Of a stretch of DNA of 32,865 nt, positions 1-32,486 are shown piece after piece. How positions within the stretch are numbered: position 1 is the first letter of the stretch; each line of letters opens with the position of its first letter. The notes below the pieces were generated by a model that did not search any database, was not told where the DNA came from, and saw nothing but the letters and a program-made list of their open reading frames with translations. A program made the translations under genes and the position numbers. The stretch is from Prevotella sp. (GTDB lineage: Bacteria > Bacteroidota > Bacteroidia > Bacteroidales > Bacteroidaceae). The stretch lies in contig JAGCNO010000021.1 in NCBI GenBank assembly GCA_017645905.1, positions 1-32,865 of the forward strand, written 5' to 3'.

Positions 1-124
1 AATGAAGAATGAAGAATGCTGCGCACAGCCAATGGTCAATATTCAATGGCCAATGGTCAATGGTCAATGGCCAATGGTCAATGTTTATACCTCTTTTCCT
101 GATTGTTATATTTTGCTTTGCCAT
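1..124 (-). CDS. Partial exported protein, N-terminus only (probable SusD or FAS1 partner of the upstream SusC)
   Basis: An ATG at 124-122, 14 bp after the stop of the SusC gene, opens a frame that stays open to the window edge (41 codons). It begins MAKQNITIRKRGINI, which resembles the leader MKKNAKISKRGNVRM of the FAS1 gene at 4942 and its twin at 8406, and it ends LCAAFFILH like them. Between these parts lie eight 7-bp repeat units (30-85) that code for a repeated DHWPL-type segment. The rest of the protein is outside the window. By position after a SusC it is most likely a SusD-family or FAS1 lipoprotein, but no mature domain can be seen. Frame and start are read directly; identity is inferred from position and leader similarity. 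Confidence 0.6.
   Translation of the reverse strand, partial: MAKQNITIRKRGINIDHWPLTIDHWPLNIDHWLCAAFFILH
30..85. repeat. Heptanucleotide array, CAATGGT type, 8 units
   Basis: Eight consecutive 7-bp units (CAATGGT, with variants CAATGGC, CAATATT, CAATGTT). Positions 1-17 hold a second heptamer type (AATGAAG), joined through TGCTGCGCACAGCC at 17-30. Both arrays lie within the leader of the partial minus-strand gene, so a one-unit change would shift its frame. Confidence 0.9.
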
Positions 125-138
125 AATGCTATTGATGT

Positions 139-3100
139 TTACAGGTTCAGTTTCACACCCACATGATAGCTGCGGCTCTGCGGCAACAGTCCGGCATCGA
201 TGCCCTGACTAATCACGGCCGTTCCATAGCTAAACTCGGGATCGGCTCCCAGATAATGGGTCACGGTAAAGATGTTCTCCACGGAGGCCCACACCTGCAT
301 GCCCTGAATGATTCGCGGACGTATGGGCAGGTCGTAGGTAAGGCTGACCTGTCGTAGCTTCAGGTAGGAGGCGTCCTCTATCCAGCGGTCGCTGAAGCGA
401 CTGTTGCCCATGGGGTCGCCAAAGGTGGCTTTGGGAACGTCGGTCTGCTGTCCGTCGGTCATCCAGCGTCGGCGCAGGGTCTGGCTCTGATTCGCCAGCG
501 TTGAGCCGTTCTCCAGCTGTTGGCGCAGGGCGTTGAACGCATCATTGCCAAGCGAATAGGTGAAGAACGCATCGAGCGTGAGGCGCCGCCACGTCAGGTT
601 AAAGCCGAAAGAGCCGTACACATCGGGGTTGGGGTCGCCGATGACGTCCATGTCGTGCTCGTCGATGATGCCGTCGGCCGTGCGGTCGGCGAAGTGAATG
701 TCACCAGCGGCAAAAGGCTGTCGACGCCCTGTTTCGTCGATGATTGCGAGGTTGGCCTGCTCAGCCTCCGCCTGGTCAGTGAAGACGCCCAGTGAGCGGT
801 AACCGTAGAAGACACCTAACGGGCGCCCCTCGCTGGTGAGCACGTTGGCTCCGAGCACCTGCGTCACGAAGTCGCCGTCGGTCAGGTGTTTTACCTTATT
901 CTTATAATGGCCTACGCTGAGGCGGGCATTGAGCTGCCAGTCGCGCTTGTCGATGAGACGGGCGCTGAGCGCTGCCTCAAAGCCTTCGTTCTGCAGCTCT
1001 CCGTCGTTGGTCCAGTAGCTCTCGAGCCCGTATTCGCGGTTGAGCTGCTTGCGCACCAGCAGGTCTTTCGTCGTGGAGCGGAAATAATCGGCACTCAGCG
1101 ACAGGCGGTTGTGAAGCATGCGCATGTCGATGCCTGCCGTGAGGGTGGCTGTGCGTTCCCACTTCAACTTCTCGTTGCCCACATTGGCCAGCACCAGTCC
1201 CTTGGCCAGACCGGCGAAGGGCGTTGTCTCGAAGTAGGTGCGGGTGACGCTGACGGGCAGGCCGTCGTTGCCGGCGAGGTCGTAGCCCACGTGGAGTTTG
1301 AGGTAGTTGATGGCCCTCAGCCTTTGCATGAAATGCTCATTGCTGACAATCCAGGCCGCGTTGACCGAGGGGAAGACTCCCCAGACCACTCCGCCCAGCT
1401 TCATTCCGCTGGCCTCCTTGCCAAAACGGCTGTTGGTCTCGAGCGTGGCCGATGCGGAGAGCAGATAGCGGTTGCGCAGGCTGAAGTCGGCCTGGGCATA
1501 CCAGGAAAGGGAGCGCCAGTCGTCGTTCACACCATTGGTAGTGCGCAGTGACGACGTGGTGACCGAGAGCGAGCGCAAGTTGTCGCTGCCCGTGTTGTAG
1601 CCCTGACCGTAGTCGCTTTGGAATGTGTCGTTGAGATAGCGGAAACCAGCTATTACTGAGACGTATGCCGACTGGCTGCTTTCTAGGCATAGCTTGGAGA
1701 GCTCGCCTGACAGGTCAAGGGTAAGTGTTGAGTGGCGGGTCATGAGCGAGGCGACGCTGTTCTGGGCTGTGCCGTACCAGTCGCCCTGGGCGTTGAGAAG
1801 CTCCACTTCGGGCAGTCCGTAGTCGGGCATGAATGAGCTCTCCTTCGTCTTGTCCCACGAATAGGCCGCCATGGCCTTCAGTGAGAAGTGTTCGGAGAAA
1901 GTGTATACGGGAGCCAGCGAGGCCGTGAAGCAATAGTTCTTGGTCTTGCCCTCGGCATTCTCAACGATGGCCAGGGGGTTGGCGACTCCCAATTCGTCGA
2001 CATCGGAAAGGCGGCCGAAGAGACGGCCCTGGGTGTCAAACTGATGGGGGCTATAGAGCGGAGACTTCAGGTAGGCTGTCAGGTATTGAGAGTTGAGAGC
2101 AGCCCCATCAGACCCATCATCCCCGAAGAGCTGTTGGGGCATGAGGTTGCGTGAGACCTGAGCAAAGGCGATGTCGGCACGAGTCTTTAAGTGCTTCGTC
2201 AGGTCTATGTCGCTGTTGAACCTGACGTTGAGGCGGTCGAAGTTGGTCTCGCGGATGATGCCGTCATTATGGGCGTAGCCTAAGGAGAAGGAGTAGAGGG
2301 CCACGTCGTCGCCTCCGCGGACTGCTATGCCATAGTTCTGTGTGGTGGCGGTATGGGAGATGACGTCCTGCCAGTCGGTGTCGTTGTGGCTGGCCTTATA
2401 GAAGGATGTCGACGGGTCGTCGTTGAGGAAACGGAGCTGTTGGGTGTTCTTGCTCCTCTTTGTTCCGCAAGCGTCCCTTTGGGCCGAGCGGGGTGATGGG
2501 TGTTGGGTGTCGGTTGATAGCAGGTCGGAGGCGAGTACGCGGTAGTCGGAAGCTCCGAGCATGGGAATGGCTTTACCCTGGCTGTGAATGCCGGCCGAGA
2601 GATTCACCTCTATCTCGGTGGCCATATTGTGACTGCGCTTGGTGGTGATGACGATGACGCCATTGGCTGCCTTTGCTCCCCAGATGGCAGTGCCGTTCTT
2701 CAGCACTTCTATGCGCTCAATATCGTCGGGGGAAATGAGTGCCAGGGGGTTGCCGAAATAGCCTTCGAGGAGGGTGTTGGGTGTTAGGTGTTGGGTGTTG
2801 GCTGTTGGGTGTTGGCTGTTGGGTGTTAGCTGTTGGCCATCGACGATGATGAGTGGCTGCGACTGCATGTTGAGGGAATGGAGTCCACGGATGAAGAAAG
2901 CATGTCCGCCGCCATCGAGTCCGCTATGGGTGATGCTCCTCAAGTGTCCGGCGAGCATGGATACGTTCTCGTCGGCTGTTAGGTGGTTTGGGGTGTTGGT
3001 GGTTTGGTGGTTTGGGGTGTTGGCTATTGAACGTGCTTGCAGTGAATATTCGTCGTAGGCTGGCTCTGCCTTTCCTGAGGGCAGCATGCGCACCAATATC

Positions 3101-3408
3101 TTATCAAGGCTGCCACGCAGCGGCCACAGCTGCATGTCGTAGCCGGGAGCCTCTATGCGAAGGATGGCATCGGCATTGGGCACGGTGAGCGTGAACAGTC
3201 CGTTTTCTTTGCTCATGGTCATTTTGGAATTAGACAAGCGAGATTCCCCACAACAGGTGTTGTCCACCACGGTGATGCGTGCTCCGGCAAAGGGCTCTCC
3301 CGTAGCATCGTCAACCACAGTTCCCTTGATCATTTGCGCCTGCGCTGCGCTAAATGAGAAATGAGAAATGAGAAATGAGAAATATATTTTGGCTATTCGC
3401 TTTTTCAT
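139..3408 (-). CDS. SusC/RagA-family TonB-dependent outer-membrane transporter
   Basis: 1089-residue SusC-like receptor expected to import oligosaccharides through the outer membrane with a SusD lid and TonB energy. The signal peptide (about residues 1-25, ending AAQAQ) is followed by a carboxypeptidase-regulatory-like domain (about 26-110), a plug with LIIVDGQQL and IERIEVLKNGTAIWGAKAANG, and a long beta-barrel ending VGVKLNL, the usual SusC C-terminus. The ATG at 3408 follows the upstream FAS1 stop by 6 bp, so it is co-transcribed. Oddities: four 7-bp repeats code for most of the hydrophobic signal segment. Three low-complexity inserts sit in frame: an 8-bp array before the plug, a 9-unit 7-bp array inside the plug, and a 48-bp dispersed element in the early barrel. 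The family call is secure; the substrate is unknown. Confidence 0.95.
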   Translation of the reverse strand: MKKRIAKIYFSFLISHFSFSAAQAQMIKGTVVDDATGEPFAGARITVVDNTCCGESRLSNSKMTMSKENGLFTLTVPNADAILRIEAPGYDMQLWPLRGSLDKILVRMLPSGKAEPAYDEYSLQARSIANTPNHQTTNTPNHLTADENVSMLAGHLRSITHSGLDGGGHAFFIRGLHSLNMQSQPLIIVDGQQLTPNSQHPTANTQHLTPNTLLEGYFGNPLALISPDDIERIEVLKNGTAIWGAKAANGVIVITTKRSHNMATEIEVNLSAGIHSQGKAIPMLGASDYRVLASDLLSTDTQHPSPRSAQRDACGTKRSKNTQQLRFLNDDPSTSFYKASHNDTDWQDVISHTATTQNYGIAVRGGDDVALYSFSLGYAHNDGIIRETNFDRLNVRFNSDIDLTKHLKTRADIAFAQVSRNLMPQQLFGDDGSDGAALNSQYLTAYLKSPLYSPHQFDTQGRLFGRLSDVDELGVANPLAIVENAEGKTKNYCFTASLAPVYTFSEHFSLKAMAAYSWDKTKESSFMPDYGLPEVELLNAQGDWYGTAQNSVASLMTRHSTLTLDLSGELSKLCLESSQSAYVSVIAGFRYLNDTFQSDYGQGYNTGSDNLRSLSVTTSSLRTTNGVNDDWRSLSWYAQADFSLRNRYLLSASATLETNSRFGKEASGMKLGGVVWGVFPSVNAAWIVSNEHFMQRLRAINYLKLHVGYDLAGNDGLPVSVTRTYFETTPFAGLAKGLVLANVGNEKLKWERTATLTAGIDMRMLHNRLSLSADYFRSTTKDLLVRKQLNREYGLESYWTNDGELQNEGFEAALSARLIDKRDWQLNARLSVGHYKNKVKHLTDGDFVTQVLGANVLTSEGRPLGVFYGYRSLGVFTDQAEAEQANLAIIDETGRRQPFAAGDIHFADRTADGIIDEHDMDVIGDPNPDVYGSFGFNLTWRRLTLDAFFTYSLGNDAFNALRQQLENGSTLANQSQTLRRRWMTDGQQTDVPKATFGDPMGNSRFSDRWIEDASYLKLRQVSLTYDLPIRPRIIQGMQVWASVENIFTVTHYLGADPEFSYGTAVISQGIDAGLLPQSRSYHVGVKLNL
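2442..2489 (-). repeat. 48-bp dispersed element, copy C
   Basis: The reverse complement matches the copies at 11786-11833 and 14416-14463, sharing the core GCCCAAAGGGACGCTTGCG and the flanking GAACACCC end. It contains two mini-palindromes (CCC-AAA-GGG and CGC-TT-GCG). Here it lies in frame inside the SusC coding sequence and adds the segment around SAQRDACGTKRS. Confidence 0.8.
2774..2836. repeat. Heptanucleotide array, GTGTTGG type, 9 units, inside SusC plug
   Basis: Nine 7-bp units (GTGTTGG, CTGTTGG, GTGTTAG) make exactly 63 bp, or 21 codons, and so keep the frame. On the coding strand they read as a Q/T/P/N/S/H-rich insert after LIIVDGQQL in the plug domain. Confidence 0.9.
2985..3024. 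repeat. Octanucleotide array, GGTTTGGG type, 5 units
   Basis: Five 8-bp units alternate between GGTTTGG(G/T) and GTGTTGG(T/C). They encode a polar stretch around NTPNHQTTNTPNH just upstream of the SusC plug. The period is 8 bp, unlike the 7-bp arrays elsewhere. Confidence 0.75.
3352..3379. repeat. Heptanucleotide array, AAATGAG x4, in SusC signal peptide
   Basis: Four perfect 7-bp units followed by a partial AAAT. On the minus strand they encode FSFLISHFSF, the hydrophobic core of the SusC signal peptide. A one-unit change would shift the frame before the mature protein. Confidence 0.95.
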
Positions 3409-3414
3409 AACTGC

Positions 3415-4029
3415 TTATTTTTCTACAGGTTCGAAAATGATGCGGTCAAGACGGAAGGAGCGTGCGTAGGTGCCTGAGGAGAACTCACGTGCTGTGACGT
3501 TGGTCGTGATGGTCAGGGTCGTCGTCGTAGGCAGTGTGGAAGGGTCGTTGCTCTCTTCCATCAGCCAGAGTCGGTCCGTGGTGTTGCTGACGGGAATCTC
3601 CACGTCTTTCAGGGCGAGCATGGTGGTTGTCTGCGTACCGCTGGTTATGAGTTCGCGGGCCTCGGCTGTAGTAGGCTTCTTGGTGGCGGAGCGCCCTTTG
3701 TCGTTCATATAGGTGAGGGTGAAGTTCACCTTCGTAGAGTCAAGCTCGGCCGTGGCCCCTTCTACGGTGGCTGGCAGGAAGACAGCATAGACGTTATAGG
3801 TTCCGGCGAGGAGGTTGGGGATGTCGAAGATGACCGTGGGGTTGGTCGATGTGGAGATGGGCATGACCTCAATGTAGCTCTCGCCGCTCACGTTCTCTAT
3901 AAGGCTGCTGGCGGTGACGCTTCGCTGATAGACGGAGGTGAGGGTGTTGTTGTAGGTGCGTCCGTTTTGCTTCTCAGCCTCCACGATGACTGGCTTGTCC
4001 CAGGTCTCCCGGCTGTCGAAGTTGAGCAA
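3415..4029 (-). CDS. C-terminal part of a frameshifted FAS1 lipoprotein gene
   Basis: This is the downstream half (about 204 codons from a TTG at 4029) of the gene that starts at 4942. Its frame stays open upstream past 4100, reading LPASNGTAWLCPLLNFDSRE, so it is very unlikely to be an independent gene. It carries no signal peptide. The sequence (SYIEVMPIS, PTVIFDIPNLLAGTYNVYAVF, FRLDRIIFEPVEK) resembles the C-terminal beta-rich module of the neighbouring FAS1 protein at 4955-6802 (GTYEIRLGY, FHFDYLEYVPV). It ends 6 bp before the SusC start. The break coincides with three GAGTGAG repeats at 4071-4091. Deleting one unit joins the halves into a 506-residue protein. The function of the module is unknown; surface glycan binding or adhesion is possible. 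Confidence 0.8.
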   Translation of the reverse strand: MLNFDSRETWDKPVIVEAEKQNGRTYNNTLTSVYQRSVTASSLIENVSGESYIEVMPISTSTNPTVIFDIPNLLAGTYNVYAVFLPATVEGATAELDSTKVNFTLTYMNDKGRSATKKPTTAEARELITSGTQTTTMLALKDVEIPVSNTTDRLWLMEESNDPSTLPTTTTLTITTNVTAREFSSGTYARSFRLDRIIFEPVEK

Positions 4030-4942
4030 GGGGCAGAGCCAGGCAGTGCCATTGCTGGCTGGCAGCTGGTGAGTGAGGAGTGAGGAGTGAGGGGGTGCGG
4101 TAGATCAGGTTTTCGACGATGGCCAGTCGGGTGCGGATGTCCTGCAGGGAGTCGGCGACGGAGGAGGCTTCGTCGTAGACCTTGAAGGAGGGCGCTATGC
4201 GGTCGTAAGCCTGCTGCCATGCCTCGTTGGTGGGCAGGAGCATGGTGTAGGTGGAGTCCTCGCGGGCGATGCTGCCCAGACCGTAGACAGGATGCTCGAG
4301 GAGACGGTTGTAGCTGACCCAGATGCTGTCGTAGACAGGGCGTCCCTGACCGTCGATGTCAATCTCTACGGAGTCGTCGACGTCGAACTTCACTTCATCG
4401 AAGCGGTGAATGAAGCTATAGAGCTCTGACAGCTCGGGGCGGGTCTCGATGTGCTCGTAGAGGTTGTTGACGTAGGGAATCTGAGTTTCGAGAAGGTGTA
4501 CTACGCCGTTGCTGGCTGGAAGCGCTTTGCTAAAGGGCGAGAAGTGATAAATCTTACCATTGAGCATTTCTATGCCTACGCTCTGCGGGGTAGAGGCAGG
4601 ATAGATGTGGCGGGCGATGTGGTTGGCCACCATTCGGCGCACGTCGGCGGCATTGGGGCTCTGGATGGGAGCAAAGACCGTGAGGGCCTGACTTGAAGCG
4701 AGCAGGTCGGCGTAGCCAGCCTGGCGCACCTGGGTGGCGAAGTCAGCCGTCTGTCCGCTCTTTTCAAGCAAGTCCATTACCGTGAGGTCCGCCCCTGTGG
4801 CAGGACCTTCGTCGTAGTGGTCAGTCCAGTCGGTGCAGGAAGAAGTGAGAAGTGATAAGTGATAAGTGAAAAGTGCTGCGCACAGCACGTTACAGGTCAT
4901 TCTCACATTACCTCTCTTGCTTATTTTGGCGTTCTTTTTCAT
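3974..4942 (-). CDS. N-terminal part of a frameshifted fasciclin (FAS1) domain lipoprotein gene
   Basis: The leader MKKNAKISKRGNVRM is followed by a hydrophobic stretch coded by 7-bp repeats and a lipobox-like LTSSC (Cys36), so this is a predicted lipoprotein. A first FAS1 domain spans about residues 50-165 (LTVFAPIQSPNAADV, NGVVHLLETQIPYV). A second starts near 170 (TYTMLLPTNEAWQQAYDRI). After about residue 284 the frame enters an unrelated tail (AASQQWHCLALPLAQLRQ), because a GAGTGAG array at 4071-4091 shifts it; the natural continuation is in the frame of 3415-4029. The gene follows the FAS1 gene at 4955 by 12 bp and is part of the same operon. FAS1 domains usually mediate adhesion or protein-carbohydrate contacts; the role here is inferred. 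A sequencing error cannot be excluded, but the break falls exactly on the repeat. Confidence 0.85.
   Translation of the reverse strand: MKKNAKISKRGNVRMTCNVLCAALFTYHLSLLTSSCTDWTDHYDEGPATGADLTVMDLLEKSGQTADFATQVRQAGYADLLASSQALTVFAPIQSPNAADVRRMVANHIARHIYPASTPQSVGIEMLNGKIYHFSPFSKALPASNGVVHLLETQIPYVNNLYEHIETRPELSELYSFIHRFDEVKFDVDDSVEIDIDGQGRPVYDSIWVSYNRLLEHPVYGLGSIAREDSTYTMLLPTNEAWQQAYDRIAPSFKVYDEASSVADSLQDIRTRLAIVENLIYRTPSLLTPHSPAASQQWHCLALPLAQLRQPGDLGQASHRGG
4071..4091. repeat. Heptanucleotide array, GAGTGAG x3, at the FAS1 frameshift
   Basis: Three perfect units. Reading frames on either side of this array belong to the same protein but are offset. Removing 7 bp (or adding 14) restores one frame of 507 codons including the stop from 4942 to 3415. 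Confidence 0.9.
4843..4877. repeat. Heptanucleotide array, AAGTGAT type, 5 units, in FAS1 signal peptide
   Basis: Units AAGTGAG, AAGTGAT, AAGTGAT, AAGTGAA, AAGTGCT. On the minus strand they encode LFTYHLSLLTS, the hydrophobic core just before the lipobox cysteine. It adjoins TGCTGCGCACAGCA at 4874-4887. Confidence 0.9.
4874..4942 (-). repeat. Duplicated leader cassette, copy 1
   Basis: About 69 bp nearly identical to 8338-8406. It encodes the N-terminal leader MKKNAKISKRGNVRM plus CNVLCAA and ends in the near-palindrome TGCTGCGCACAGCA (4874-4887) next to a heptamer array. It forms the start of the FAS1 gene. Confidence 0.85.
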
Positions 4943-4954
4943 AGTTTTCTCTCT

Positions 4955-6802: not shown

Positions 6803-6823
6803 TTGGGTGATTGGTGATGGGTG

Positions 6824-8347
6824 CTACTTGACGATGTCGCTTGACGTGTCATAGAAGGGGTTTTGCTTTAAGAGTTTATTGACTTTGAGCTCATCGCGGT
6901 GAATGGGCATGTAAAGGGCATTGAGTGTGTTCAGGCGTGTGAGCACTGTTGCCTGGTCAAGGCTTTCATACTTGCGCAGCAGATAGGTTGACACCACGTT
7001 GCTGAGGTCGTCGGTATGGCGGATGCGGCGCAGCAGGTCGAAGTAGCGCTTGCCCTCGAACATAAACTCACGCTGACGCTCGTCGAAGACCAGGTCGCGC
7101 ATCAGTTCCTGCGAGTTATAGCTTGCCGGCGACAGCGACCCTGTGCCACGAGAGGGGTTAGCCCGGTCGTAGGTGTAGCCCACCATCTGTATGGCTTGCT
7201 CCAGGTCGCCGCTTCCGTTGCGCTCCACCAGGGCCTCGGCCATCATCAGGTAGACATCGGCCAGACGATAGACTATCCAGGGCTGGGTGTTCTGGTTCGT
7301 TACGTAGTCGGCGGCGGCCACCTGGGTGCTGGTGCTCTCACGGCGGTAGGCGACGTACTTGCGGATGGGTATGAACGCACCGCCGGCGTTGCGGAACATG
7401 AAGTCGTGCTGCCGGACGTCGCTGCCGTCGAACAGCGTGTAGTTGCGCCAGTCGAGTGCCGACAGCTGGTTGGTGCTCGAACGTCCGCCGCTCATGCCAT
7501 ACATCTCGTTGACCACGTAGTTGGGCGTATAGCTGTCGAACACCAGTTCGAAAATGGTCTCCTGCGACAGTCCCTGACCGAAGACCTGCTGGTTGTAACG
7601 CCCGGCGCTCTCCAGCTGCAGAGGGTTGAGCGGGGTCTGCAGCACCCGCTGGCACAGTTCTATGCAGCGGTCGTAACGGCCCAGCCACAGGTTCATGTCG
7701 GCCATGAGCGTCCAGAGCATCTTCTGCGTCACCCGTCCCTTGGTCGAGGCGTTGCTCGAATAAACCGACTTGGCAAAGTTGTTCTCTATGCCGTCAAGCT
7801 CTGTGAGCAGCTCTGAGAGCAGCACGTCGCCGTCGGTCTGCGGCAGCTGGAAGGGTCGGGTGTCGTCGCTGTACGACTGGGTCGTGAAGGGCACGTCCTT
7901 GAACGTCCGCACCAGATAGAAATAGCACAGCGCCCGCAGCGTCTTCATCTCAGCCTCAAATGCCCGCAGCTCGCCAGTCTTGAAGTCGGGGTCCTGGCGC
8001 TGCACCGCCGGCATCTGTTCGAGCACTGTGTTGCAGCAGTTGATGACCTGATACATCGGGCCCCACTGGGCATATCCGTTGTTGGCATCGACGTTCGCCG
8101 TCAGCATATAGTAGACGTTGTCGTTGTAGCTTTGGCCAAGCAGCACATTGTCCGAGCGCATCTCGCCCCAGGCGATGAGGCGTTCCATCACGTCGGGCTC
8201 TTCCAGACCGCGGTAACAGGCAGCGACGGCACTCTCCACGTCGCTCTTCGTCTGCCAGAAGTCATCGCTTACCAGCTCCGTCTGAGGCTTGATATCGAAG
8301 AAGTCGGAGCAGGAAATGAAGAATGAAGAATGAAGAATGCTGCGCAC
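6824..8347 (-). CDS. SusD/RagB-family glycan-binding lipoprotein, leader out of frame
   Basis: About 507 residues from a GTG at 8347, typical SusD size. It carries the usual start of the mature SusD fold (SDFFDIKPQTELVSDDFW) and the C-terminal RagB pattern (LVFDERQREFMFEGKRYFDLLRRI). It should form the lid of the SusC encoded just upstream. The start is unusual. From GTG 8347 the leader is only MRSILHSSFFISC, short but with a usable lipobox (Cys13). A far better leader, MRKNAKISKRGNVRM, starts at ATG 8406, 12 bp after the SusC stop, but is one frame off and stops at 8269. Adding one TGAAGAA unit to the three at 8317-8337 joins them as LCAAFFILHSSFFISCSDFF and gives 529 residues. The gene is therefore either translated weakly from the GTG or is currently phase-off. 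Confidence 0.92.
   Translation of the reverse strand: MRSILHSSFFISCSDFFDIKPQTELVSDDFWQTKSDVESAVAACYRGLEEPDVMERLIAWGEMRSDNVLLGQSYNDNVYYMLTANVDANNGYAQWGPMYQVINCCNTVLEQMPAVQRQDPDFKTGELRAFEAEMKTLRALCYFYLVRTFKDVPFTTQSYSDDTRPFQLPQTDGDVLLSELLTELDGIENNFAKSVYSSNASTKGRVTQKMLWTLMADMNLWLGRYDRCIELCQRVLQTPLNPLQLESAGRYNQQVFGQGLSQETIFELVFDSYTPNYVVNEMYGMSGGRSSTNQLSALDWRNYTLFDGSDVRQHDFMFRNAGGAFIPIRKYVAYRRESTSTQVAAADYVTNQNTQPWIVYRLADVYLMMAEALVERNGSGDLEQAIQMVGYTYDRANPSRGTGSLSPASYNSQELMRDLVFDERQREFMFEGKRYFDLLRRIRHTDDLSNVVSTYLLRKYESLDQATVLTRLNTLNALYMPIHRDELKVNKLLKQNPFYDTSSDIVK
8317..8337. repeat. Heptanucleotide array, TGAAGAA x3, at the SusD leader frameshift
   Basis: Three perfect units between the conserved leader (from 8406) and the SusD lipobox. 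With four units the two frames join; with three they do not. It adjoins TGCTGCGCACAGCA at 8338-8351. Confidence 0.95.
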
Positions 8348-8406
8348 AGCACATTACAGATCATTCTCACATTACCTCTCTTGCTTATTTTGGCGTTCTT
8401 TCTCAT
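8338..8406 (-). repeat. Duplicated leader cassette, copy 2
   Basis: About 69 bp nearly identical to 4874-4942, encoding MRKNAKISKRGNVRM plus ICNVLCAA from ATG 8406. It precedes the SusD gene but is presently in a different frame from it. Confidence 0.85.
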
Positions 8407-8418
8407 ATATTTCTCACT

Positions 8419-14517: not shown

Positions 14518-14565
14518 ATTCTTGTCAAATTATGTTGTCTGAGCACATCACTCATCACTCATCAG

Positions 14566-14763
14566 ACTTTGAGCCGTTCAAACCCTGAAGTTGAGCCGTT
14601 CGGACTGTGAGTTTAAGCCGTTCGGACTGCGAGTTTAATCCGTTCGGACTCTGAGTTTAATCCGTTCGGAATGCGAGTTTAATCCGTTCGGACTGTGAGT
14701 TTAATCCGTTCGGACTGTGAGTTTAATCCGTTCGGACTATGGGTTTGAGCCGTTCAAACTCAG
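14566..14763. repeat. 22-bp tandem repeat array, 9 copies
   Basis: The core CCGTTC starts at 14574 and recurs every 22 bp exactly, at 14596, 14618, 14640, 14662, 14684, 14706, 14728 and 14750. The consensus is AGTTTAATCCGTTCGGACTG plus two bases. The inner copies contain TCCGTTCGGA, with TCCG/CGGA dyad symmetry; the outermost copies have CAAA in place of CGGA. There are no spacers, so it is not CRISPR. It lies between the start of the minus-strand operon and its best candidate promoter, so it could be part of a roughly 320-nt 5' leader. A lone copy is at 23616-23637. Confidence 0.95.
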
Positions 14764-23637: not shown

Positions 23638-23647
23638 ACGCTCTCTT

Positions 23648-23700: not shown

Positions 23701-26280
23701 ATGTTCTTACCTGTCAAAATCCTTCTCGTCATTGGCCTCCTGAGCCAACAGCCTACAGCCAATGGCCAACAGCTGACAGCCCTCTCCACCGAGACCCGCA
23801 TCGATGACCTCATCAGCCGCCTCACCATCGAGGAAAAGGCTAACCTGCTGATGCACTATTCCCCTGCCGTCGACCGTCTGGGTCTGCATCAGTTCCAATG
23901 GTGGGGCGAGGCGCTTCATGGCGTCGGCTTCTCCGGCTTTGCCACCGTGTTTCCCGAACCGATAGGCATGGCGGCCTCGTTCGACGACACGCTGCTCTAT
24001 CAGGTGTTCGATGCTGTCAGCACGGAGCAGCGAGCGAAGTACAACAAGGCGGCGCAGCGTGGAACCTTTGACACCTTCGAGAGTGTCAGCGTCTGGACTC
24101 CCAATGTCAACATCTTCCGTGACCCTCGTTGGGGCCGTGGGCAGGAGACCTACGGTGAAGACCCTTACCTGACGAGCCGCATGGGGCAGGCGGTGGTCCG
24201 CGGTCTGCAGGGGCCCAAGGGCTCATTCTTTAAGACGCTGGCCTGTGCCAAGCATTATGCGGTGCACAGCGGGCCGGAGTGGAACCGTCATCATGAGAAC
24301 ATTGACTACTTGCCGCCCAGAGACCTCTGGGAGACCTATCTGCCAGCGTTCAAGGACTTGGTGATGAAGGCCGGTGTGCAGGAGGTGATGTGTGCGTATA
24401 ATGCCTACGACGGAGAGCCATGCTGCAGCAGCAACAGGCTACTCCAGCAGATACTCCGCGATGAGTGGGGCTTTCGTGGGTTGGTGGTGAGCGACTGCGA
24501 TGCTATAAACGACATCTGGGTTGAGGGGCATCACGGCATTGAGCCCGATGTAGCTCATGCGTCGGCACGCGGCGTGGCTGGTGGTACCGACCTGAACTGC
24601 GGCGGCAGCTACACGTCGCTGCCCGATGCCGTGAGTCAGGGGCTCATCAGCGAACAGCGTGTCGACGAGAGTCTGAGGCGTGTGATGCGTGCCCGCTTCT
24701 CGCTCGGCGACTTCGACCCCGACTCGGTGGCTGAGTGGAATGCCCTCACGATGGATGTGGTCAACTGTGAGAAGCACCGCGAGCTGGCCCTGAAAATGGC
24801 CCAAGAGACGATTACGCTGCTGAAGAACGACGGCGTATTGCCAATTGAAACTAAGCCCCGCATTGTTGTGCTCGGACCTAATGCCAACGACTCGACCATG
24901 CTTTGGGGCAACTACTCAGGAAGGCCTGCCCACACGGTGACCATCCTTGAAGGCATTCAGGAAAAGGTGGGCAAGGAGAACGTGACGTTTATCGATGGCT
25001 GTGGCTATGCCAGCAAGAATGTGCGGACGGAAAACCGCTTTGACTGTCTTGGCCAGCTGAAGGCTGAAGTGTGGAACACTCCTGCAGCCAATGCCCAACA
25101 GCCAACAGCCAACAGCCAACACCGAACGTTTACGGAGCCTTTGAACTTCAATCTCAACGAAGACGGATTCTTTGCCCCTGGTGTGGGCAGGGAGAACTTC
25201 TCCGCAAGGCTGAGGGGCACTTTCCATGCTCAGGCCACGGAGGAGCTGCAATTTGCCATTGCCGGCGACGACGGTTTCCGGCTCATCATCGATGGCGACA
25301 CCGTGGTCAACGAGTGGCAGACGCAGTCGACAAAATACTGTTATCCGATGGTCAGCGTGGTGAAAGGGCGCGACTATGAGGTGCAGATAGACTACTTCCA
25401 GGGAGGCGGCAGCGCCGAACTGAAGTTCGACATCAACCACTATCGTGAGCTCTCGGACGATGAGCTGCTGGAGCAGGTTCCGCAGGATGCTGAGACCGTC
25501 ATCTTCGTCGGCGGCATCTCTTCCAGGCTGGAGGGTGAGGAGATGAGCGTCAACGAACCGGGCTTCCGTGGTGGCGACCGTGAGAGCATCGAACTGCCGC
25601 GGAAACAACGTGACATGCTGCGCCGGCTCAAGGAGATGGGCAAGCGCATCGTCTTCGTGAACTGTAGTGGCTCGGCCATGGCTATGGTGCCCGAACAAGC
25701 GACGTGCGACGCCATTGTGCAGGCATGGTACGGAGGCGAGCAGGGAGGCAGGGCAGTGGCCGACGTGCTCTTCGGCGATTACAACCCCTGCGGCAAGCTG
25801 CCCATCACGTTCTATCGCTCCACGGAGCAACTCCCTGACTTTCAGGACTACAGAATGGCCAACCGCACCTATCGCTATTTCAAGGGCGAGGTGCTCTATC
25901 CCTTCGGCTATGGCCTGAGCTATACCACTTTCAATATCGGAAAGGCAAAACTGGAGGGGGAGCAACTCATGGTGCCCGTGAAGAACACCGGCAAGCGTGA
26001 AGGTACCGAGGTGGTCCAGCTCTATGTCCGCTCACACGACGATGAGGGCGGTCCCCTACGGTCGCTGAAAGGTTTTACCCGCATCACCCTGAAGCCTGGC
26101 GAGCAGGGAGTAGCCACTATCCCCATCCCCCGAGAGACCTTCGAGCGGTGGGATGCCGAGACCAACACCATGCGCATCGTCCCCGGACGCTACACCTTAT
26201 ATTACGGCACCAGCTCTGCCGAAAAAGATTTGAAAGCTGTTGGGTGTGGGGTGATGGGTGATGGGGTACCCAACACCTAA
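23701..26280 (+). CDS. GH3-family beta-glycosidase (beta-xylosidase-like) with PA14 insert
   Basis: 859 residues. The signal-like N-terminus ([14 protein letters not shown]) is followed by a repeat-coded [14 protein letters not shown]. The TIM-barrel domain carries [35 protein letters not shown] and the nucleophile Asp near 265 in LVVSDCDAI. The alpha/beta domain includes [14 protein letters not shown] and is interrupted by a PA14 module (about 480-580; [16 protein letters not shown]). An FnIII domain (about 740-845) closes. This layout is that of Prevotella/Bacteroides GH3 xylosidases with PA14. An internal 7-bp array (25087-25128) adds a polar stretch just before PA14. The C-terminal residues [14 protein letters not shown] come from repeat-like DNA and the stop lies inside a 9-unit array. 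Glucosidase or arabinosidase activity cannot be excluded. Confidence 0.92.
23744..23778. repeat. Heptanucleotide array, GCCAACA type, 5 units, GH3 N-terminus
   Basis: Units GCCAACA, GCCTACA, GCCAATG, GCCAACA, GCTGACA. It lies just after the hydrophobic signal segment and encodes [12 protein letters not shown]. Confidence 0.85.
25087..25128. repeat. Heptanucleotide array, GCCAACA type, 6 units, inside GH3
   Basis: Units GCCAATG, CCCAACA, GCCAACA x3, CCGAACG; 42 bp equals 14 codons, so the present frame is kept. It codes for [14 protein letters not shown] immediately before the PA14 domain. Confidence 0.9.
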
Positions 26281-26331
26281 CACCCAACACCCAACCCCCA
26301 ACACCTAACACCCAACACCTAACCCCTAACC
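26269..26331. repeat. Heptanucleotide array, CCCAACA type, 9 units, GH3-fucI junction
   Basis: Nine 7-bp units (CCCAACA, CCTAACA, CCCAACC, CCTAACC) contain the GH3 stop codon (26278-26280) and fill the spacer up to the fucI ATG at 26337. Copy changes would alter the spacing before fucI, and possibly the GH3 C-terminus. Confidence 0.9.
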
Positions 26332-26336
26332 CAACT

Positions 26337-28157
26337 ATGAACAAATATCCTAAAATTGGAATCCGCCCCACCATCGACGGTCGTCAGGGCGGCGTTCGTG
26401 AGAGTCTTGAAGAGAAAACCATGGCGTTAGCCCATGCAGTGAAGAACCTGATAGAGCAGAACCTGCGCAATGGCGACGGTTCGGCCGTGGAGTGCGTCAT
26501 TGCCGATACGACCATTGGCCGTGTTGCCGAGAGCGCTGCCTGTGCCGACAAATTCGAGCGTGAGGGCGTGGGCTCCACCATCACCGTCACCTCGTGCTGG
26601 TGCTACGGCTCGGAGACCATGGACATGAATCCCCACTATCCCAAGGCCGTATGGGGCTTCAACGGCACGGAGCGCCCCGGGGCAGTCTATCTCGCCGCAG
26701 TATTGGCTGCCCATGCCCAGAAGGGCCTGCCCGCCTTTGGCATCTACGGCCATGATGTGCAGGACCTCGACGACAACACCATTCCTGCCGACGTGGCGGA
26801 GAAGCTCCTCCGCTTTGCCCGTGCTGCCCAGGCGGTGGCCACCATGCGTGGCAAGAGCTACCTCTCGCTTGGCAATACCTGTATGGGCATTGCCGGTTCT
26901 ATTGTCGATGCCGATTTCTTCCAGCACTATCTGGGCATGCGCACCGAGTATGTGGAATTGGTAGAGATTCTACGCCGCGTGGATTTCGGCATCTACGACC
27001 ATGAGGAGTTTGAGCGGGCCATGGACTGGGTGAACCGCTATGCCAAGCCCCACGAAGGTCACGACTACAACGAGGAGCGTCCGCTATTCCCCGGCACCCC
27101 GATGACCTTGTTCAATGGCAAAGGCAAGGGCAAGACACGCCAGGAGAAGGACGACGACTGGGCCTTCACGGTGAAGAACATGATGATCATCCGCGACCTG
27201 ATGCACGGCAACCCCCGTCTGCTGGAGATGGGCTACAAGGAGGAGGCGCTCGGACACAACGCCCTGCTCGGCGGCGTGCAAGGGCAGCGCCAATGGACTG
27301 ACTACAAGCCCAACTTCGACTTCCCGGAGTCGATGATGTGTACCTCCTTCGACTGGAATGGTATTCGTGAGGCCGATGTCCTGGCCACGGAGAACGATGC
27401 GCTGAACGGCGTGTCGATGCTGTTCGGTCATCTGCTCACCAATCGCGGCGTCATGTTCAGCGACATCCGCACCTATTGGAGTCCCGAGGCCGTGGAGCGT
27501 GTGACAGGTAAAAGACCACAGGGACTGGCCGCAGGAGGCTTCATTCACCTCATCAACAGCGGTGCCACCACGCTCGATGCCACCGGCGCCATGACCGATG
27601 CTGACGGGCAGCCTACGATGAAGGAGCCTTGGAACATGACCGAGTCCGACGTCGAAGCCTGCATCAACGCTACCAGCTGGATGCCTGCCGACCGAGACTA
27701 TTTCCGCGGTGGCGGTTACTCGGCCCATTTTGTCAGCCGGGGCGGCATGCCCATGACCATGATGCGCCTGAATATGGTGCAGGGACTGGGCCCCGTCTTA
27801 CAACTGGCAGAAGGGTGGACGGTAGAATTGGACGCCGATGTTCACGACAAGCTGGACAAGCGTACCGACCCCACATGGCCCACCACATGGTTCGTGCCTC
27901 GAACGGACGCAGCGAAAGACTGCTTCAAGGACGTCTATTCGGTGATGAATGCCTGGGGAGCCAACCACGGCGCCATTGCCTATGGCCACATCGGTGCCGA
28001 CGTGCTGACGCTCTGCTCCATCCTGCGCATCCCCGTCTGCATGCACAACCTACGGGATTGTGACATCTTCCGTCCCGCTGCCTGGAATGCCTTCGGCATG
28101 GACAAGGAAGGGGCCGACTATCGTGCCTGCCAGAACTTCGGACCGATTTATAAGTAA
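26337..28157 (+). CDS. fucI: L-fucose isomerase
   Basis: 606 residues (E. coli FucI is 591). It converts L-fucose to L-fuculose in the cytoplasm (EC 5.3.1.25); no signal peptide is present. Long stretches match the family: [98 protein letters not shown] and [13 protein letters not shown]. The metal-binding Glu (about 352, ATEND), Asp (about 376, FSDIRTYW; 24 residues later as in E. coli E337/D361) and His (about 544, ANHG) are all kept. It is last in the plus-strand operon, after the 9-unit repeat, and ends 14 bp from the convergent esterase gene. It links the fucosidase-like enzyme to fucose catabolism. The kinase and aldolase are not in the window. Confidence 0.97.
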
Positions 28158-28171
28158 TTGAAGAGTGTTGG

Positions 28172-30181
28172 TCAGTTGGCCAAGTGATTGTTGATGGAGA
28201 GTCCTGGCCAGTCGTCGGTGCGGAAGGGCACGGCAGGCAGCCCGGCGGCGTTCTGCAGGTTACAGAGCGGGTTGACGTGCCAGGCATAGCGGACGGCGAC
28301 AGGAGCGGCGACATCGGGGCTGCTGACAATGACGGTCTGACCGTCGATGCGAGCCTGTGCCCAGTGCCACTGGTGGTCGCTGCCAGCAATGGCAAAGCCG
28401 GTTAGAGGACTGCCGTCGGATGTGCGGAGACCATCGGCATGGTCGAAGAGCAGACGGATGCTGTTGCCCTCTATCTGATAGTCTTTGTAGAGGGGCCCTG
28501 AGAACTCCAGGCCCTTCTCGCCGTAGGTGTTAGCTCGGGCGATGAGTGCCAGCCGACGTCCTACCTCCTGCTTGTTGCGGGGGTGGATGTCGTTGGCCTC
28601 GCCGATGTCGATCAGACAGGCCAGTCCTGACTTCTCGACGTGGCGAGCTGCCATAGCCTGAGCCTCACGCACCTCGGCCCACTCATCGTCGCCCGGCTGG
28701 GTCTGCAGTTGTTTGTAGTTGGCCAGCTGTACGATGTAGAAGGGGAAGTCGTAGCCCCACTTGGTGCGCCAGTCGCGAATCATCAGAGGCAGCAGTTCGC
28801 GATACTGGTAGCCCTTGTGCTCGTTGTTGCAGCCCTGATACCAGATAGTGCCGCGTATGGCGAAGCCCACGAGGGGGTTGATCATGGCATTATAGAGGAC
28901 GGTGACCTGATTGGGCGATGACGCGTTGTCGACGGGGATGGGTTGGAGGGCACTGAGCGGCGTGGTGGCTTTGTAGTGCCACTGTCCGGCAAGGGGCAGC
29001 CGTTCGCCCCGGCACTCCATATAGAGCTGGTCGGCAGAGCTGTAGAGTCCGCCCTCGCCGCCTGTGTCGATGATGCGCATGGCGATGACGGCCGTTCCGT
29101 GCTTCACCTGCCGTGCTGGAATGGTGTAGGAGCGCATTTCGCCGTATGCATTGGTATGGCCTACGAGCTGCCCATTGAAATAGGTATAGTCAATATCGTC
29201 GACCAGCGGTCCCAGCACGAGCTTCACCTCCTTACCTGCCCAAGAACCGGGGATGTCGACCGTACGAAGCAGCCAGGCTACACCGTCGTAGCCAGGCAGT
29301 CCGCCCTCTTCCCACTTCACGGGGATGGTCATCGTGGACCATTTTGAAGTGATACGTGATAAGTGATGAGTGATAAGTTCGGGGATTTCGAAACCCCTCG
29401 CACTGGAGTCGAGCGTTGCCTCTCGCTGTTTCCACTCGTCGAGCTGCTTTTGGTAGAGTTGCTCGCGCTCATTCTTGTCGGCAGGCAGGGCAGCGACGCG
29501 CTGCAGGTCTTGCTGCATGTCGGGGTGAAGGGCGAGCGCCTGAGCGCTGGTCCACGGCTCGATGAACGTGCCGCCCCAGGAGGCATCGATGAGGCCTACG
29601 GGCACGTTGCGGTATTTGTGGATGTCGCGGCCAAAGAAATAGGCCGTGGCCGAGAACTCCTTCACGCTTTGTGCCGAGCAGACCTGCCATCCGCCGCCGA
29701 GGTTGGTCTCGAAGTCGTTAAGCGGCTGCGGGCTGGTGTTCTTACGCACCTGCAGCAGTCGGATGTTCTGATACTGGTTGGCCTCCTGCTTCTCCTGCTC
29801 GAAGTTGAGGACACGGCTCCATCCGTCGACGGGCATCTCCATGTTCGACTGTCCTGAGCAGAGCCACACCTCGCCCACCATGACGTTCTGTAGGGTTATT
29901 TTCTGTCCGTCGCTGACGGTGAGAGTGTAGGGACCGCCAGCCTGTGGTGTGCGCAGCGTGGTGCGCCAGTTGCCCTGGGCATCGGCGGTGGTCTCAACGG
30001 GGGTGGTAGCCCACGAGGCGTTGATGGTTACTTTCTTGCCAGCCTTGGCCTGTCCCCAGATGGGGGCGTCGGTCTGCTGCTGGAAGACCATGTTGTCGGT
30101 GAACAACGGTGGCATGACGGGCTTGGCGCTGACGGGGAGCGCGGCAAGGGTCAAAATCAAAAGGAATGCTGGTGATTTCAT
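28172..30181 (-). CDS. SGNH/SASA-type carbohydrate O-acetylesterase (CE20-like)
   Basis: About 669 residues from ATG 30181 (MKSPAFLLILTLAALPVSA, a clear signal peptide). The open frame continues upstream to 30286 through repeats, but that part is not credible as protein. The enzyme should remove acetyl groups from sugars outside the cytoplasm. It shows an SGNH layout: nucleophile Ser112 in LCSGQSNMEMP, TIWYQGCNNEHKGYQYRELL, and Asp531/His533 in GEANDIHPRN. A jelly-roll-like insert lies between the halves (about 290-420; WAGKEVKLVLGPL, YTYFNGQLVGHTN). This resembles the sialate O-acetylesterase group that includes family CE20, which acts on acetylated xyloglucan in Xanthomonas. A four-unit 7-bp array (29347-29374) codes for ITHHLSRIT in frame before the insert. 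It follows GH36 and is probably co-transcribed. Confidence 0.88.
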   Translation of the reverse strand: MKSPAFLLILTLAALPVSAKPVMPPLFTDNMVFQQQTDAPIWGQAKAGKKVTINASWATTPVETTADAQGNWRTTLRTPQAGGPYTLTVSDGQKITLQNVMVGEVWLCSGQSNMEMPVDGWSRVLNFEQEKQEANQYQNIRLLQVRKNTSPQPLNDFETNLGGGWQVCSAQSVKEFSATAYFFGRDIHKYRNVPVGLIDASWGGTFIEPWTSAQALALHPDMQQDLQRVAALPADKNEREQLYQKQLDEWKQREATLDSSARGFEIPELITHHLSRITSKWSTMTIPVKWEEGGLPGYDGVAWLLRTVDIPGSWAGKEVKLVLGPLVDDIDYTYFNGQLVGHTNAYGEMRSYTIPARQVKHGTAVIAMRIIDTGGEGGLYSSADQLYMECRGERLPLAGQWHYKATTPLSALQPIPVDNASSPNQVTVLYNAMINPLVGFAIRGTIWYQGCNNEHKGYQYRELLPLMIRDWRTKWGYDFPFYIVQLANYKQLQTQPGDDEWAEVREAQAMAARHVEKSGLACLIDIGEANDIHPRNKQEVGRRLALIARANTYGEKGLEFSGPLYKDYQIEGNSIRLLFDHADGLRTSDGSPLTGFAIAGSDHQWHWAQARIDGQTVIVSSPDVAAPVAVRYAWHVNPLCNLQNAAGLPAVPFRTDDWPGLSINNHLAN
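29347..29374. repeat. Heptanucleotide array, AAGTGAT type, 4 units, inside esterase
   Basis: Units AAGTGAT, ACGTGAT, AAGTGAT, GAGTGAT. On the minus strand they encode LITHHLSRIT within the esterase, upstream of the jelly-roll insert, and are currently in frame. Confidence 0.85.
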
Positions 30182-30219
30182 GGGTGTTGGGTGTTGGTGG
30201 TTTGGGGTTTGGTGCGCAG

Positions 30220-30268
30220 CCACTCCCCTCCCATCAAGGGGAGGGGCAGGGGTGGGGTCTGTAACTCC
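30220..30268. repeat. GC-rich palindromic element between GH36 and esterase genes
   Basis: CCCCTCCC-ATCAAG-GGGAGGGG is a perfect 8-bp stem with a 6-nt loop (about 30224-30245), followed by CAGGGGTGGGG. It lies in the 94-bp gap with GGTGTTG-type repeats (30181-30212). It has no T-run, so it is not a typical terminator; it looks like a dispersed palindromic repeat. Confidence 0.7.
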
Positions 30269-30275
30269 ACTCTTA

Positions 30276-32486
30276 TTACTTCTCACTTCTCACTTCTATG
30301 ATATGGCTGACGAGGTCGTTAGCGGAGGTGACTGTGATGCCCACCTTCATGAGGTAGTCGCCGGTATAGACCTTGTCATTGCAGTTGAGCCAGCTCTGCT
30401 CGCCGGGCATGAGGCAAATCTCACGGACACGGTAGAGGGCATCGGGGTCAAGTCCTTTCAGTCGTGTGGGCAGCTGCTGCTCGCCATAGCGTGGATGCAC
30501 ATCGTAGGCAAAGACGAGGGCCTGGCGGCGGTCTTCGCTGACTCGCTGCATCACACAGTGCTCACCCTCGTAGGGCGACACCAGACGATAGAGTTGCGGC
30601 GAGAAGACGACGGGCTTCAGACGGTTATAGGCACCGATGGCCTCGCGGCAGTATTGCAGGTCGCGCTCCGAGAGCCCCTTCAGTCCGATGTCGAAGCCCA
30701 GCTTCCCAGTGAAGGCCACGTCGACGCGGAACTTCACGCTGGCCCGGCTGTTCCAGTTGGTGACGTGGGCACACATGGCCTTGGCGGGCATGAACTGCGA
30801 GTAGCCCCATTGTATGAACAGCCGCTCGATGGGGTCGGTATTGTCGGAGCACCAGAACTCGGTGAAGTATTTCAGCCCCTCGTAGTCGGTGCGTCCGCCG
30901 CCGCCTGAGCACATCATCATGTAGAGGTCGGGGTATTTCTGCTGTACACGCTGGAGCACGTTGTAGAGCCCCCGAACGTAGTCCACATAGAGATTGCCCT
31001 GCTCCGCCTGCTCGTAGTGTGAGAAGATGTTGGTGATGGGCGAGTTGCAGTCCCACTTCATGAACTTCAGGTTCGGGTTCTCCTGCATCAGCTGGTCCAC
31101 CACGCCGAAGACGAAGTCCTGCACTTTGGGATTGCTCAGGTCGAGCACCAGCTGATTGCGGAAGTAGTAGACCTCTCGCCCCTTCCATCGGAGTATCCAG
31201 TCGGGGTGCTGTTCGGCCAGCTCACTCTGCGGGTTGACCATCTCGGGCTCAATCCAAATACCGAACTCCACGCCCTTCTCGTTGGCCGCCTTCACCAGAT
31301 AGGGCACGCCGTTGGGCAGCTTTGAGCGTGTCACCTGCCAGTCGCCCAGTCCGGCATGGTCGTCCTTTCGGGGATATTTGTTGCCAAACCATCCGTCGTC
31401 GAGCAGGAACAGGTCTACGCCCAGGTCCTTGGCCTCGCCGAAGAGCTGTGTGAGTTTCTGCTCGTCGAAGTCGAAGTAGGTGTTCTCCCAGTTGTTCAGC
31501 AGCGTCATGCGGTCGATGTCGCCCTTGTAGAGCTGGTGCCTGAGCGCCCATCGCTGGAACCGTCGGCTGCCCTCGCCCACACCGTCGGTAGAGAGCGTGA
31601 ACAGGAAGTCGGGCGTACGGAAGCTGTCGCCCCGCTTCAGCAGATAGGTTGAAGCATCGGGGTTGATGCCGCTGACAACGCGCAGGGCGTTGTCGTGGTC
31701 TACCTCGAAGGTGAAGCGGAAGTTGCCTGTCCAGGCCAGGGTGCCCATGAGCACCGTGCCGTGGTCTTCGCTGACAGGCTCTCCGATGCCAAGCTCAAAG
31801 AAGGGCGAGGCAAACATGTTGGCACGGGCGCCCAGACGGGAGTCTACAATCTTCTTGCCGAACTGCAGCTGCTGGCTCGACATGCGCATCTCCTTGGCCC
31901 AGTCGCCCGAGAACTCGGTGAGGAAATACTGCCCGGCCTCGAAGTAGAGCATCGACGAGGCATAGCGCGACAGGGTGAAGCGGCCTTTCTCGTCGTGGCA
32001 GATTTCGCTCCACTGGCGGATGATGTCCTCCTCTGGATAAGTCTCGTAGTGTAGCACCACGCTGACGGGGTATAGCTCGTCGCGCAGGGTGACGGTGGTG
32101 TGGTTGCCCTGCTGCTGGTGAGTCTGATATTTCAGGATGCTGGTGGGGTGGCCGTCGGTGTGGCGCAGCTCGAGGGCAGGCTCATAATAGTCCTCGGTGC
32201 CCATCACGGGGTAGGCCTCAAAACCCTGTATGGCCGTGCTGCTGAGCTGGCCGTAGGGCTGGCTGAGCAGGCTGACGTCGGTCTTGGCCGACAGCCGCTC
32301 GCCCAGATAGGTCTGATAGAGCCGCCCATTGTCTTTCACCTGCAGCACCAGCTGCGTGTGGTCGGTGACGATGGAGATGGTGGTGCGCTCGGCATGCAGC
32401 GGCAAGGCCAACAGCCAACAGCCAACAGCCAACGGTAGTAAGCGAAGCTTCCAAGCTTTGCAGTAATCAAGAATAGTCTGTTTCAT
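30276..32486 (-). CDS. GH36-family alpha-galactosidase
   Basis: 736 residues from ATG 32486. An upstream in-frame ATG at 32513 falls inside the promoter and is rejected. The enzyme removes terminal alpha-galactose. The signal peptide ends near LPLHA. The N-terminal beta-sandwich is followed by a TIM barrel with FLLDDGWFGNKYPRKDD, LGDWQVTRSKLPNG, GIWIEPEMVNP, the nucleophile Asp479 in MKWDCN, CSGGGGRTDYE, and the acid/base Asp548 in FWCSDNTDP. These are textbook GH36 motifs. Four GCCAACA units (32407-32434) encode AVGCWLLAL, the hydrophobic core of its signal peptide. The last codons (EVRSEK and stop) lie in another 7-bp array (30278-30298). It is first in a two-gene operon with the esterase. 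Confidence 0.95.
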   Translation of the reverse strand: MKQTILDYCKAWKLRLLPLAVGCWLLALPLHAERTTISIVTDHTQLVLQVKDNGRLYQTYLGERLSAKTDVSLLSQPYGQLSSTAIQGFEAYPVMGTEDYYEPALELRHTDGHPTSILKYQTHQQQGNHTTVTLRDELYPVSVVLHYETYPEEDIIRQWSEICHDEKGRFTLSRYASSMLYFEAGQYFLTEFSGDWAKEMRMSSQQLQFGKKIVDSRLGARANMFASPFFELGIGEPVSEDHGTVLMGTLAWTGNFRFTFEVDHDNALRVVSGINPDASTYLLKRGDSFRTPDFLFTLSTDGVGEGSRRFQRWALRHQLYKGDIDRMTLLNNWENTYFDFDEQKLTQLFGEAKDLGVDLFLLDDGWFGNKYPRKDDHAGLGDWQVTRSKLPNGVPYLVKAANEKGVEFGIWIEPEMVNPQSELAEQHPDWILRWKGREVYYFRNQLVLDLSNPKVQDFVFGVVDQLMQENPNLKFMKWDCNSPITNIFSHYEQAEQGNLYVDYVRGLYNVLQRVQQKYPDLYMMMCSGGGGRTDYEGLKYFTEFWCSDNTDPIERLFIQWGYSQFMPAKAMCAHVTNWNSRASVKFRVDVAFTGKLGFDIGLKGLSERDLQYCREAIGAYNRLKPVVFSPQLYRLVSPYEGEHCVMQRVSEDRRQALVFAYDVHPRYGEQQLPTRLKGLDPDALYRVREICLMPGEQSWLNCNDKVYTGDYLMKVGITVTSANDLVSHIIEVRSEK
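30278..30298. repeat. Heptanucleotide array, ACTTCTC type, 3 units, GH36 C-terminus
   Basis: ACTTCTC, ACTTCTC, ACTTCTA. On the minus strand it supplies the last GH36 codons (EVRSEK); a unit change would alter the C-terminus and stop position. Confidence 0.85.
32407..32434. repeat. Heptanucleotide array, GCCAACA type, 4 units, GH36 signal peptide
   Basis: GCCAACA x3 and GCCAACG. Read on the minus strand (TTGGCTG) it encodes the hydrophobic AVGCWLLA of the signal peptide. The same unit read on the other strand in GH2 and GH3 encodes polar QQPTANSQ. Confidence 0.95.

Follow-up and report, generated by a model that had tools for sequence, protein, structure and literature searches.

The 32,865-nucleotide stretch analysed here (the window) is contig C12 of the draft genome G000 of a Prevotella sp. 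(3.40 Mb in 181 contigs; 87.5% complete), whose nearest relatives are ruminant Prevotella metagenome assemblies, and it encodes a polysaccharide utilization locus (PUL) studded with tandem arrays of 7-bp units. These arrays are probably slippage-prone heptamers, partly carried by small insertion elements, which are tolerated at gene margins, serve as signal-peptide cores and occasionally act as an off-switch for a lipoprotein. In the proposed mechanism, many arrays in the genus would belong, as arms or tails, to a small dispersed hairpin repeat and others would have been copied within a leader cassette common to lipoprotein genes; heptamer DNA would land or grow where proteins tolerate insertion, selection would hold most coding arrays in frame, and a one-unit slip of 7 bp, which always shifts the frame, would now and then turn off a lipoprotein such as SusD. 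On this reading the arrays are mutation-prone DNA with local on/off effects rather than a dedicated PUL-wide switch. By Pfam, it holds two SusC-type receptors, SusD, three fasciclin-domain proteins, GH95, GH2 and GH43, together with FG-GAP, GH3, L-fucose isomerase, SASA esterase and GH36.

The excess of period 7 in the window is far beyond chance. Tandem Repeats Finder (TRF) returned 20 period-7 rows, two of them overlapping, and exact lag-7 runs of at least nine matches numbered 14, against a mean of 0.16 and a maximum of 2 in 100 order-3 Markov resamplings of the window. Among periods 2-25, more than one run was found only for 7, 14, 21, 22 and 24, the 22-bp signal coming from a separate intergenic array (14594-14738). 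Each unit named in the initial annotation of this stretch (CAATGGT, GTGTTGG and others) was recovered by TRF, up to rotation, and the arrays sit where it had placed them, in signal peptides, loops and gene junctions of secreted proteins: in the signal peptides of SusC2, fasciclin 1, SusD, GH2, GH3 and GH36, within SusC2 and GH3, and at the junctions 26242-26335, 30181-30212 and 30278-30297 (Table 1). Leader arrays encode the hydrophobic core: in SusC2 it reads FSFLISHFSF, and GH36 is a further example. Two stretches of the same style have periods other than 7 in TRF (24/8 and 24/16/8; Table 1).

A network confined to the PUL, as first supposed, was rejected because heptamers occur genome-wide. 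Counting exact lag-7 runs of at least 12, 55 arrays were found in 572 kb of other contigs (39 further G000 stretches), or 9.6 per 100 kb, the density in the window being 27.4 per 100 kb. The relatives G041, G297, G117, G360 and G278 carry 2.5-10 arrays per 100 kb. Exact arrays are absent from 59 kb of G285 and from 60 kb of each of four further complete genomes in the genus; one genome per species was compared. The units are A+T-rich (G+C 0.37 vs 0.53 in the genome sample) and interrelated, with 53 one-step pairs among 39 distinct units against 24.7 ± 4.5 after within-unit shuffling of letters, a clustering by which wholly unrelated units were rejected; the units of relatives behave alike (22 one-step pairs among 21, against 9.4 ± 2.7). 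The motif YCAHYNN, derived from the window (14 of 14 arrays), fits 51 of 80 and 26 of 40 arrays outside it, compared with a fraction of 0.17-0.18 for 7-mers of the genome and 0.25-0.26 for shuffled units, and describes a tendency only.

With a simple greedy open reading frame (ORF) caller, positions were compiled for the 84 merged arrays found in 605 kb that include the window. Arrays are enriched within 80 bp 3' of a stop (18, against 2.2 expected), upstream of starts (9 against 2.6), in the first 35 codons (15 against 6.3) and in the last 12 codons (6 against 2.1); intergenic arrays farther out number 8 against 6.4, and only 28 lie elsewhere in genes, where 64.4 were expected. At the orthologous leader places of L041 there are different heptamers, AACAATG and AACAGTG, with both leaders in frame, and other orthologous places in relatives are occupied by a CCCCTCC..GGGAGGGG palindromic repeat.

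Part of these arrays can be assigned to a definable hairpin. Many arrays of the AAGAATG and AAGAGTG types terminate, in a single register, in TTTGCTNCCGC. The head AATTTGCTNCCGC is present in 45 copies in G000, against none for the reversed pattern, and at least once in 128 of 249 genomes of the genus, with a maximum of 84 copies (G213 and G216) and, by a table count, at least ten in 55 genomes. As the reversed-head control matched about 29 genomes, mostly once and at most four times, low head counts are close to chance. The listed places often contain inverted head pairs separated by some tens of bases, and the layout of the putative element is (heptamer)n-AATTTGCTNCCGC-loop-GCGGNAGCAAATT-(heptamer)n. 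For 20 heads from eleven other genomes, a lag-7 array was found on the outer side of 16 and on the inner side of one, the same lag-7 threshold being reached by 22 of 240 control stretches; in G000, heptamers lie on the outer side in 8 of 11 heads, against 0 of 11.

One copy lies inside a conserved gene. In G041, menC (PF21508, PF13378) contains an in-frame hairpin with heptamer arms and is 78 bp longer than in G297. The insert of about 20-30 residues is missing in all six other genomes compared; an alignment covers four of them, and G297 and G360 are covered by the six-genome comparison. By our own count its peptide matches 14 further places in G041, eight of them on both strands, as expected of a hairpin. 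The 20-nt hairpin loop of another copy is inverted between G041 and G297 (L112 10977-11058, L123 6553-6634). Many dispersed palindromic copies and an in-frame insert absent from orthologues are both features of palindromic insertion elements. The genome-encoded Y1 transposase that characterizes repetitive extragenic palindromes and their associated transposases (REP/RAYT) was not found: the Y1 (IS200-like) family PF01797 had no match in G000 (87.5% complete) at E 1e-10, and the head-richest genomes, G213 and G216 (68% complete), are not among the 80 matching genomes.

The hairpin bears on two accounts of how heptamers arise. The initial annotation had posited a mechanism that makes heptamers instead of one spreading repeat; the constant period agrees with this, but the conserved head and the dispersed hairpin are at odds with the absence of a spreading repeat. 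Neutral birth and decay of microsatellites, in which slippage favours 7-bp units, weak selection lets arrays persist and heads and cassettes are coincidental, would fit the heptamer excess in many bacteria, with a polymerase-contact idea proposed for it (PMC4692102), and also the gathering of arrays in weakly constrained places. It is nonetheless an improbable account, as dozens of heads stand in one register with arrays, menC of G041 holds a hairpin and the clustering of units exceeds that of shuffled units. At the other extreme, the copies might constitute a new family of palindromic mobile elements, very small and with heptamer arms, which on landing in a leader would supply both a signal-peptide core and a 7-bp frame switch, the SusD and fasciclin breaks described below being off states. 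This stronger proposal is unlikely; if true, one element would both make proteins secreted and make them phase-variable.

Array length proved unstable between close relatives when set against control windows. Between G041 and G297, which share 94.3% identity over long alignments, 5 of 10 mapped arrays differ in length (four further arrays were unmapped), two of them by whole units (70 and 7 bp) and the remaining three by 24, 58 and 78 bp. The controls comprised 90 coding windows, of which one changed in length, and 90 intergenic windows, of which 15 did; 14 and 40, respectively, were unmapped.

Frame, in turn, is mostly preserved. The period-7 arrays inside genes of the window are in frame in 9 of 11 cases and broken in two. 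Codon usage on both sides of the 84 arrays gave the same frame for 27, different frames for 19 and no coding on both sides for 38; arrays inside open ORFs were not counted as a frame test, since ORFs are open by definition. Outside the window, the corresponding numbers are 24 (five at ORF ends or between ORFs), 16 and 31. Among the 19 different-frame cases, 4071 and 8315 of the window are real breaks, 26249 is the GH3/fucose isomerase junction, and all 16 outside the window were gene junctions on reading (seven plus nine), with no in-gene break. An interpretation of 8315 as a gene junction as well was rejected by translation. A scan of leaders outside the window yielded 14 candidates, none convincing; it missed the SusD paralogue L206, which was found in the SusD census.

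In SusD, the leader ATG (8404-8406) opens MRKNAKISKRGNVRMICNVLCAAFFILHSSF, the body SILHSSFFISCSDFFDIKPQ is in another frame, and the change falls within the leader array 8315-8339. The same leader type, alike from LCAA/LGAA onward, is in frame in 7 of 7 other readable genes (two in G000, two in G139 and one each in G059, G066 and G291). The distance from GCGCAG to TCCTG is 32 bp in five homologues measured by script and in L212 by reading, and 25 bp in the window SusD, so that its array is one 7-bp unit shorter than in the in-frame homologues of 32 bp; L220, with a diverged edge, gave 30 bp by a different anchor. In the genome, 24 SusD-family matches were found, one without its N-terminus and one cut by a contig end. 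Those with a readable leader array have an in-frame ATG in 7 of 9 cases, the exceptions being the window SusD and L206, and those without a leader array have one in 13 of 13. Slippage is the likely cause of the SusD break, given that two genes of the same operon are broken at arrays and that the ORF list of the window contains no other split gene.

For fasciclin 1, the tblastn alignment of the intact 540-aa G041 protein switches frame between 4097 and 4065, across the GAGTGAG array; intact orthologues have 540 aa (G041), 537 aa (G054) and 503 aa (G117). The stretch at the break, 87 bp long in the orthologue, has 31 bp in the window; the break may thus go back to the time when the array arose. 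The fasciclin 1 orthologue L041 is also frameshifted, at a spot without a heptamer array; fasciclin 1 may therefore decay for other reasons.

These observations bear on the idea of a contingency system. On that explanation, the leader and loop arrays of SusC/SusD, fasciclin and glycosidase genes would have been selected because slipped-strand changes turn surface nutrient uptake on and off, and unit number does set the frame of surface genes here: one operon has two genes that lose frame precisely at their arrays, SusD stands one unit off from homologous in-frame leaders, an in-frame ATG is lacking only among array-bearing SusD genes, unit numbers change between close species, and the window contig itself terminates inside a leader array (AATGAAG 1-18). 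The start of contig C5 (L007 1-28) lies in an array of the same kind, followed by a SusD-type body, and the two contig ends look like neighbours separated at the leader array. Free switching would leave about two thirds of arrays out of frame, and a snapshot with many loci out of frame was not observed, codon usage and reading having turned up no such locus outside the window. The in-frame cassette leaders are constant at 32 bp in five species, as if change were selected against; 2/9 vs 0/13 is a small sample, and in L206 the leader is replaced rather than just shifted. Of the candidate phase-variation system of the initial annotation, length instability and two genes broken at arrays are supported, and a general switch is not. 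A dedicated switch is a possible reading of the sequence, and selection for contingency across the locus is, on balance, unlikely.

The leaders also bear signs of copying. Those of fasciclin 1 and SusD are nearly identical, MKKNAKISKRGNVRMTCNVLCAA and MRKNAKISKRGNVRMICNVLCAA (window 4780-4945 and 8290-8420), and in G041 a leader MMKYQ...LPWGGVGGG is common to three fasciclin/SusD genes, as if the leader had been copied along the operon. In L206 (G000:C113:24604-25230), which has no in-frame ATG, the leader array is fused with the head GCGGTAGCAAATT of the hairpin. Arrays could accordingly be regarded as recombination handles that let leaders and 5' regions swap between genes, unit mutation being a side effect, and the shared leaders and the L206 junction of array and head in place of a leader would suit this. 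The widely varying unit sequences would limit such exchange and 49 of the 84 arrays lie inside ORFs, which makes recombination as the principal role very unlikely.

Several points weigh against slippage-prone heptamers partly carried by insertion elements. The head AATTTGCTNCCGC has zero copies in the window, so descent of the window arrays from the element is conjectural, and no head was found for the CCAACA/GGGTGTT arrays, which make up most of the glycosidase side. The sequence GCTGCGCACAGC abuts three window arrays, and 5 of its 6 genome copies adjoin arrays; as a candidate second head it was rejected, for in leaders it encodes LCAA and may be plain leader sequence. An IS200-like transposase was likewise rejected as the mover, none being found in G000. 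Half of the mapped arrays (5 of 10) are unchanged between G041 and G297, an alternative SusD start, GTG 8345-8347, is in frame with the body and would give a very short leader, and all data come from draft assemblies.

Heptameric simple sequence repeats (SSRs) are known in bacteria as TAACTGA arrays (PMC4679880) and as GGGAATC arrays in Xanthomonas and Nostoc (PMC4692102), and across 7,006 surveyed prokaryotic genomes tandem heptamers proved to be the most abundant intergenic repeats in a wide range of species, with no clear clue to their function (PMC6344855). The arrays described here resemble heptameric SSRs in their 7-bp units, in lying in many cases near starts or in intergenic DNA, and in insertions and deletions of 7-nt steps between close strains; they differ in the many related units per genome, the use as signal-peptide cores and the common hairpin head. 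Rickettsia palindromic elements are short multi-copy palindromes inserted in frame into conserved genes, and cyanobacterial small dispersed repeats occur in heptamer arrays. The short multi-copy palindrome and the in-frame insert in a conserved gene are shared with these elements, whereas the arms here are heptamer arrays, and the sequences are not known to be related.

In Bacteroides fragilis, SusC/SusD phase variation is driven by a DNA invertase (cited in PMC11868660). On/off variation of SusC/SusD at the outer membrane is common to both cases, by DNA inversion there and by a candidate 7-bp slip in the SusD leader here. If true, slippage would be a route separate from DNA inversion and could have a bearing on which strains consume a given glycan; SusD 8315-8339 and fasciclin 4071-4092 are concrete loci at which any one-unit switching could be counted. 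In the literature searched, which largely excluded subscription papers, no report of heptamer-armed hairpins or SusD leader arrays in Prevotella was found. The heptamer period in bacteria is known; what looks new is the hairpin element, together with the leader cassette and the broken SusD. The genus links part of the abundant bacterial heptamers to a definable hairpin element and shows their use as signal-peptide cores.

Table 1. Heptamer arrays, related repeats and interrupted genes in the window
Feature	Position	Strand	Basis
AATGAAG array (1-18) and CAATGGT array (30-83), leader of gene cut by contig end; GCTGCGCACAGC between, 18-29	1-83	-	TRF
GGGTGTT array within SusC2, in frame; relatives carry different sequence there	2491-2510	-	TRF, translation
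GGGTGTT array within SusC2, in frame	2772-2836	-	TRF, translation
Related G/T-rich repeat in SusC2, period 24/8, in frame	2978-3023	-	TRF
AAATGAG array, hydrophobic core of SusC2 signal peptide, in frame	3352-3383	-	TRF, translation
Fasciclin 1 lipoprotein gene, split: ORFs 3974-4942 and 3415-4029	3415-4942	-	ORF list, homologues
GAGTGAG array at fasciclin 1 frame break	4071-4092	-	tblastn with intact G041 protein
AGAAGTG/AAGTGAT array in fasciclin 1 signal peptide, in frame; then GCTGCGCACAGC 4875-4886	4841-4875	-	TRF, translation
TGGGTGA array, immediately upstream of fasciclin 2 start	6804-6823	-	TRF
SusD gene; leader ATG 8404-8406 out of frame with body; GCTGCGCACAGC 8339-8350	6824-8406	-	translation
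AATGAAG array in SusD leader; frame change inside; GCGCAG-to-TCCTG 25 bp	8315-8339	-	translation, leader comparison
Related CCAAACC-type repeat, period 24/16/8, fasciclin 3 leader, in frame	14355-14400	-	TRF, translation
CATCACT array upstream of fasciclin 3	14546-14564	.	TRF
AGCCAAC array, end of GH2 signal peptide, in frame	17420-17454	+	TRF, translation
AGCCAAC array in GH3 leader, in frame	23743-23781	+	TRF, translation
CCAACAG array within GH3, edge of PA14 domain, in frame	25085-25127	+	TRF, Pfam
GGGTGAT and ACCCAAC arrays across GH3 stop, up to fucose isomerase start	26242-26335	+	TRF
AAGTGAT array within open SASA esterase ORF	29347-29378	-	TRF, ORF list
GGGTGTT array immediately 5' of esterase ATG	30181-30212	-	TRF
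ACTTCTC array, GH36 final residues and stop	30278-30297	-	TRF, translation
GCCAACA array, hydrophobic core of GH36 signal peptide, in frame	32407-32433	-	TRF, translation

Two other repeat kinds accompany the heptamers. The BrickBuilt miniature inverted-repeat transposable element (MITE) of Porphyromonas gingivalis holds tandem repeats in a small inverted-repeat element (PMC4596501). Unlike the heptamers it has a 23-bp unit and is always intergenic, and it is closer to the 22-bp arrays of G000. These are near-palindromic arrays of 22-bp period: in 605 kb, period-22 runs mark 59 loci, of which a few resemble heptamers. Clusters of their core AAAGAACGGCTT lie between genes in 45 of 46 cases, and 22-bp arrays built on different cores occur in several relatives, for instance with GAGAAGCGGTGCTTTTC in G041. 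A palindromic repeat CCCCTCCC..GGGGAGGGG is located at 30220-30260 of the window; in G041, L041 and L042 it fills several spots orthologous to window heptamers, and in the leaders of relatives it encodes LSPLPWGGVGGG.

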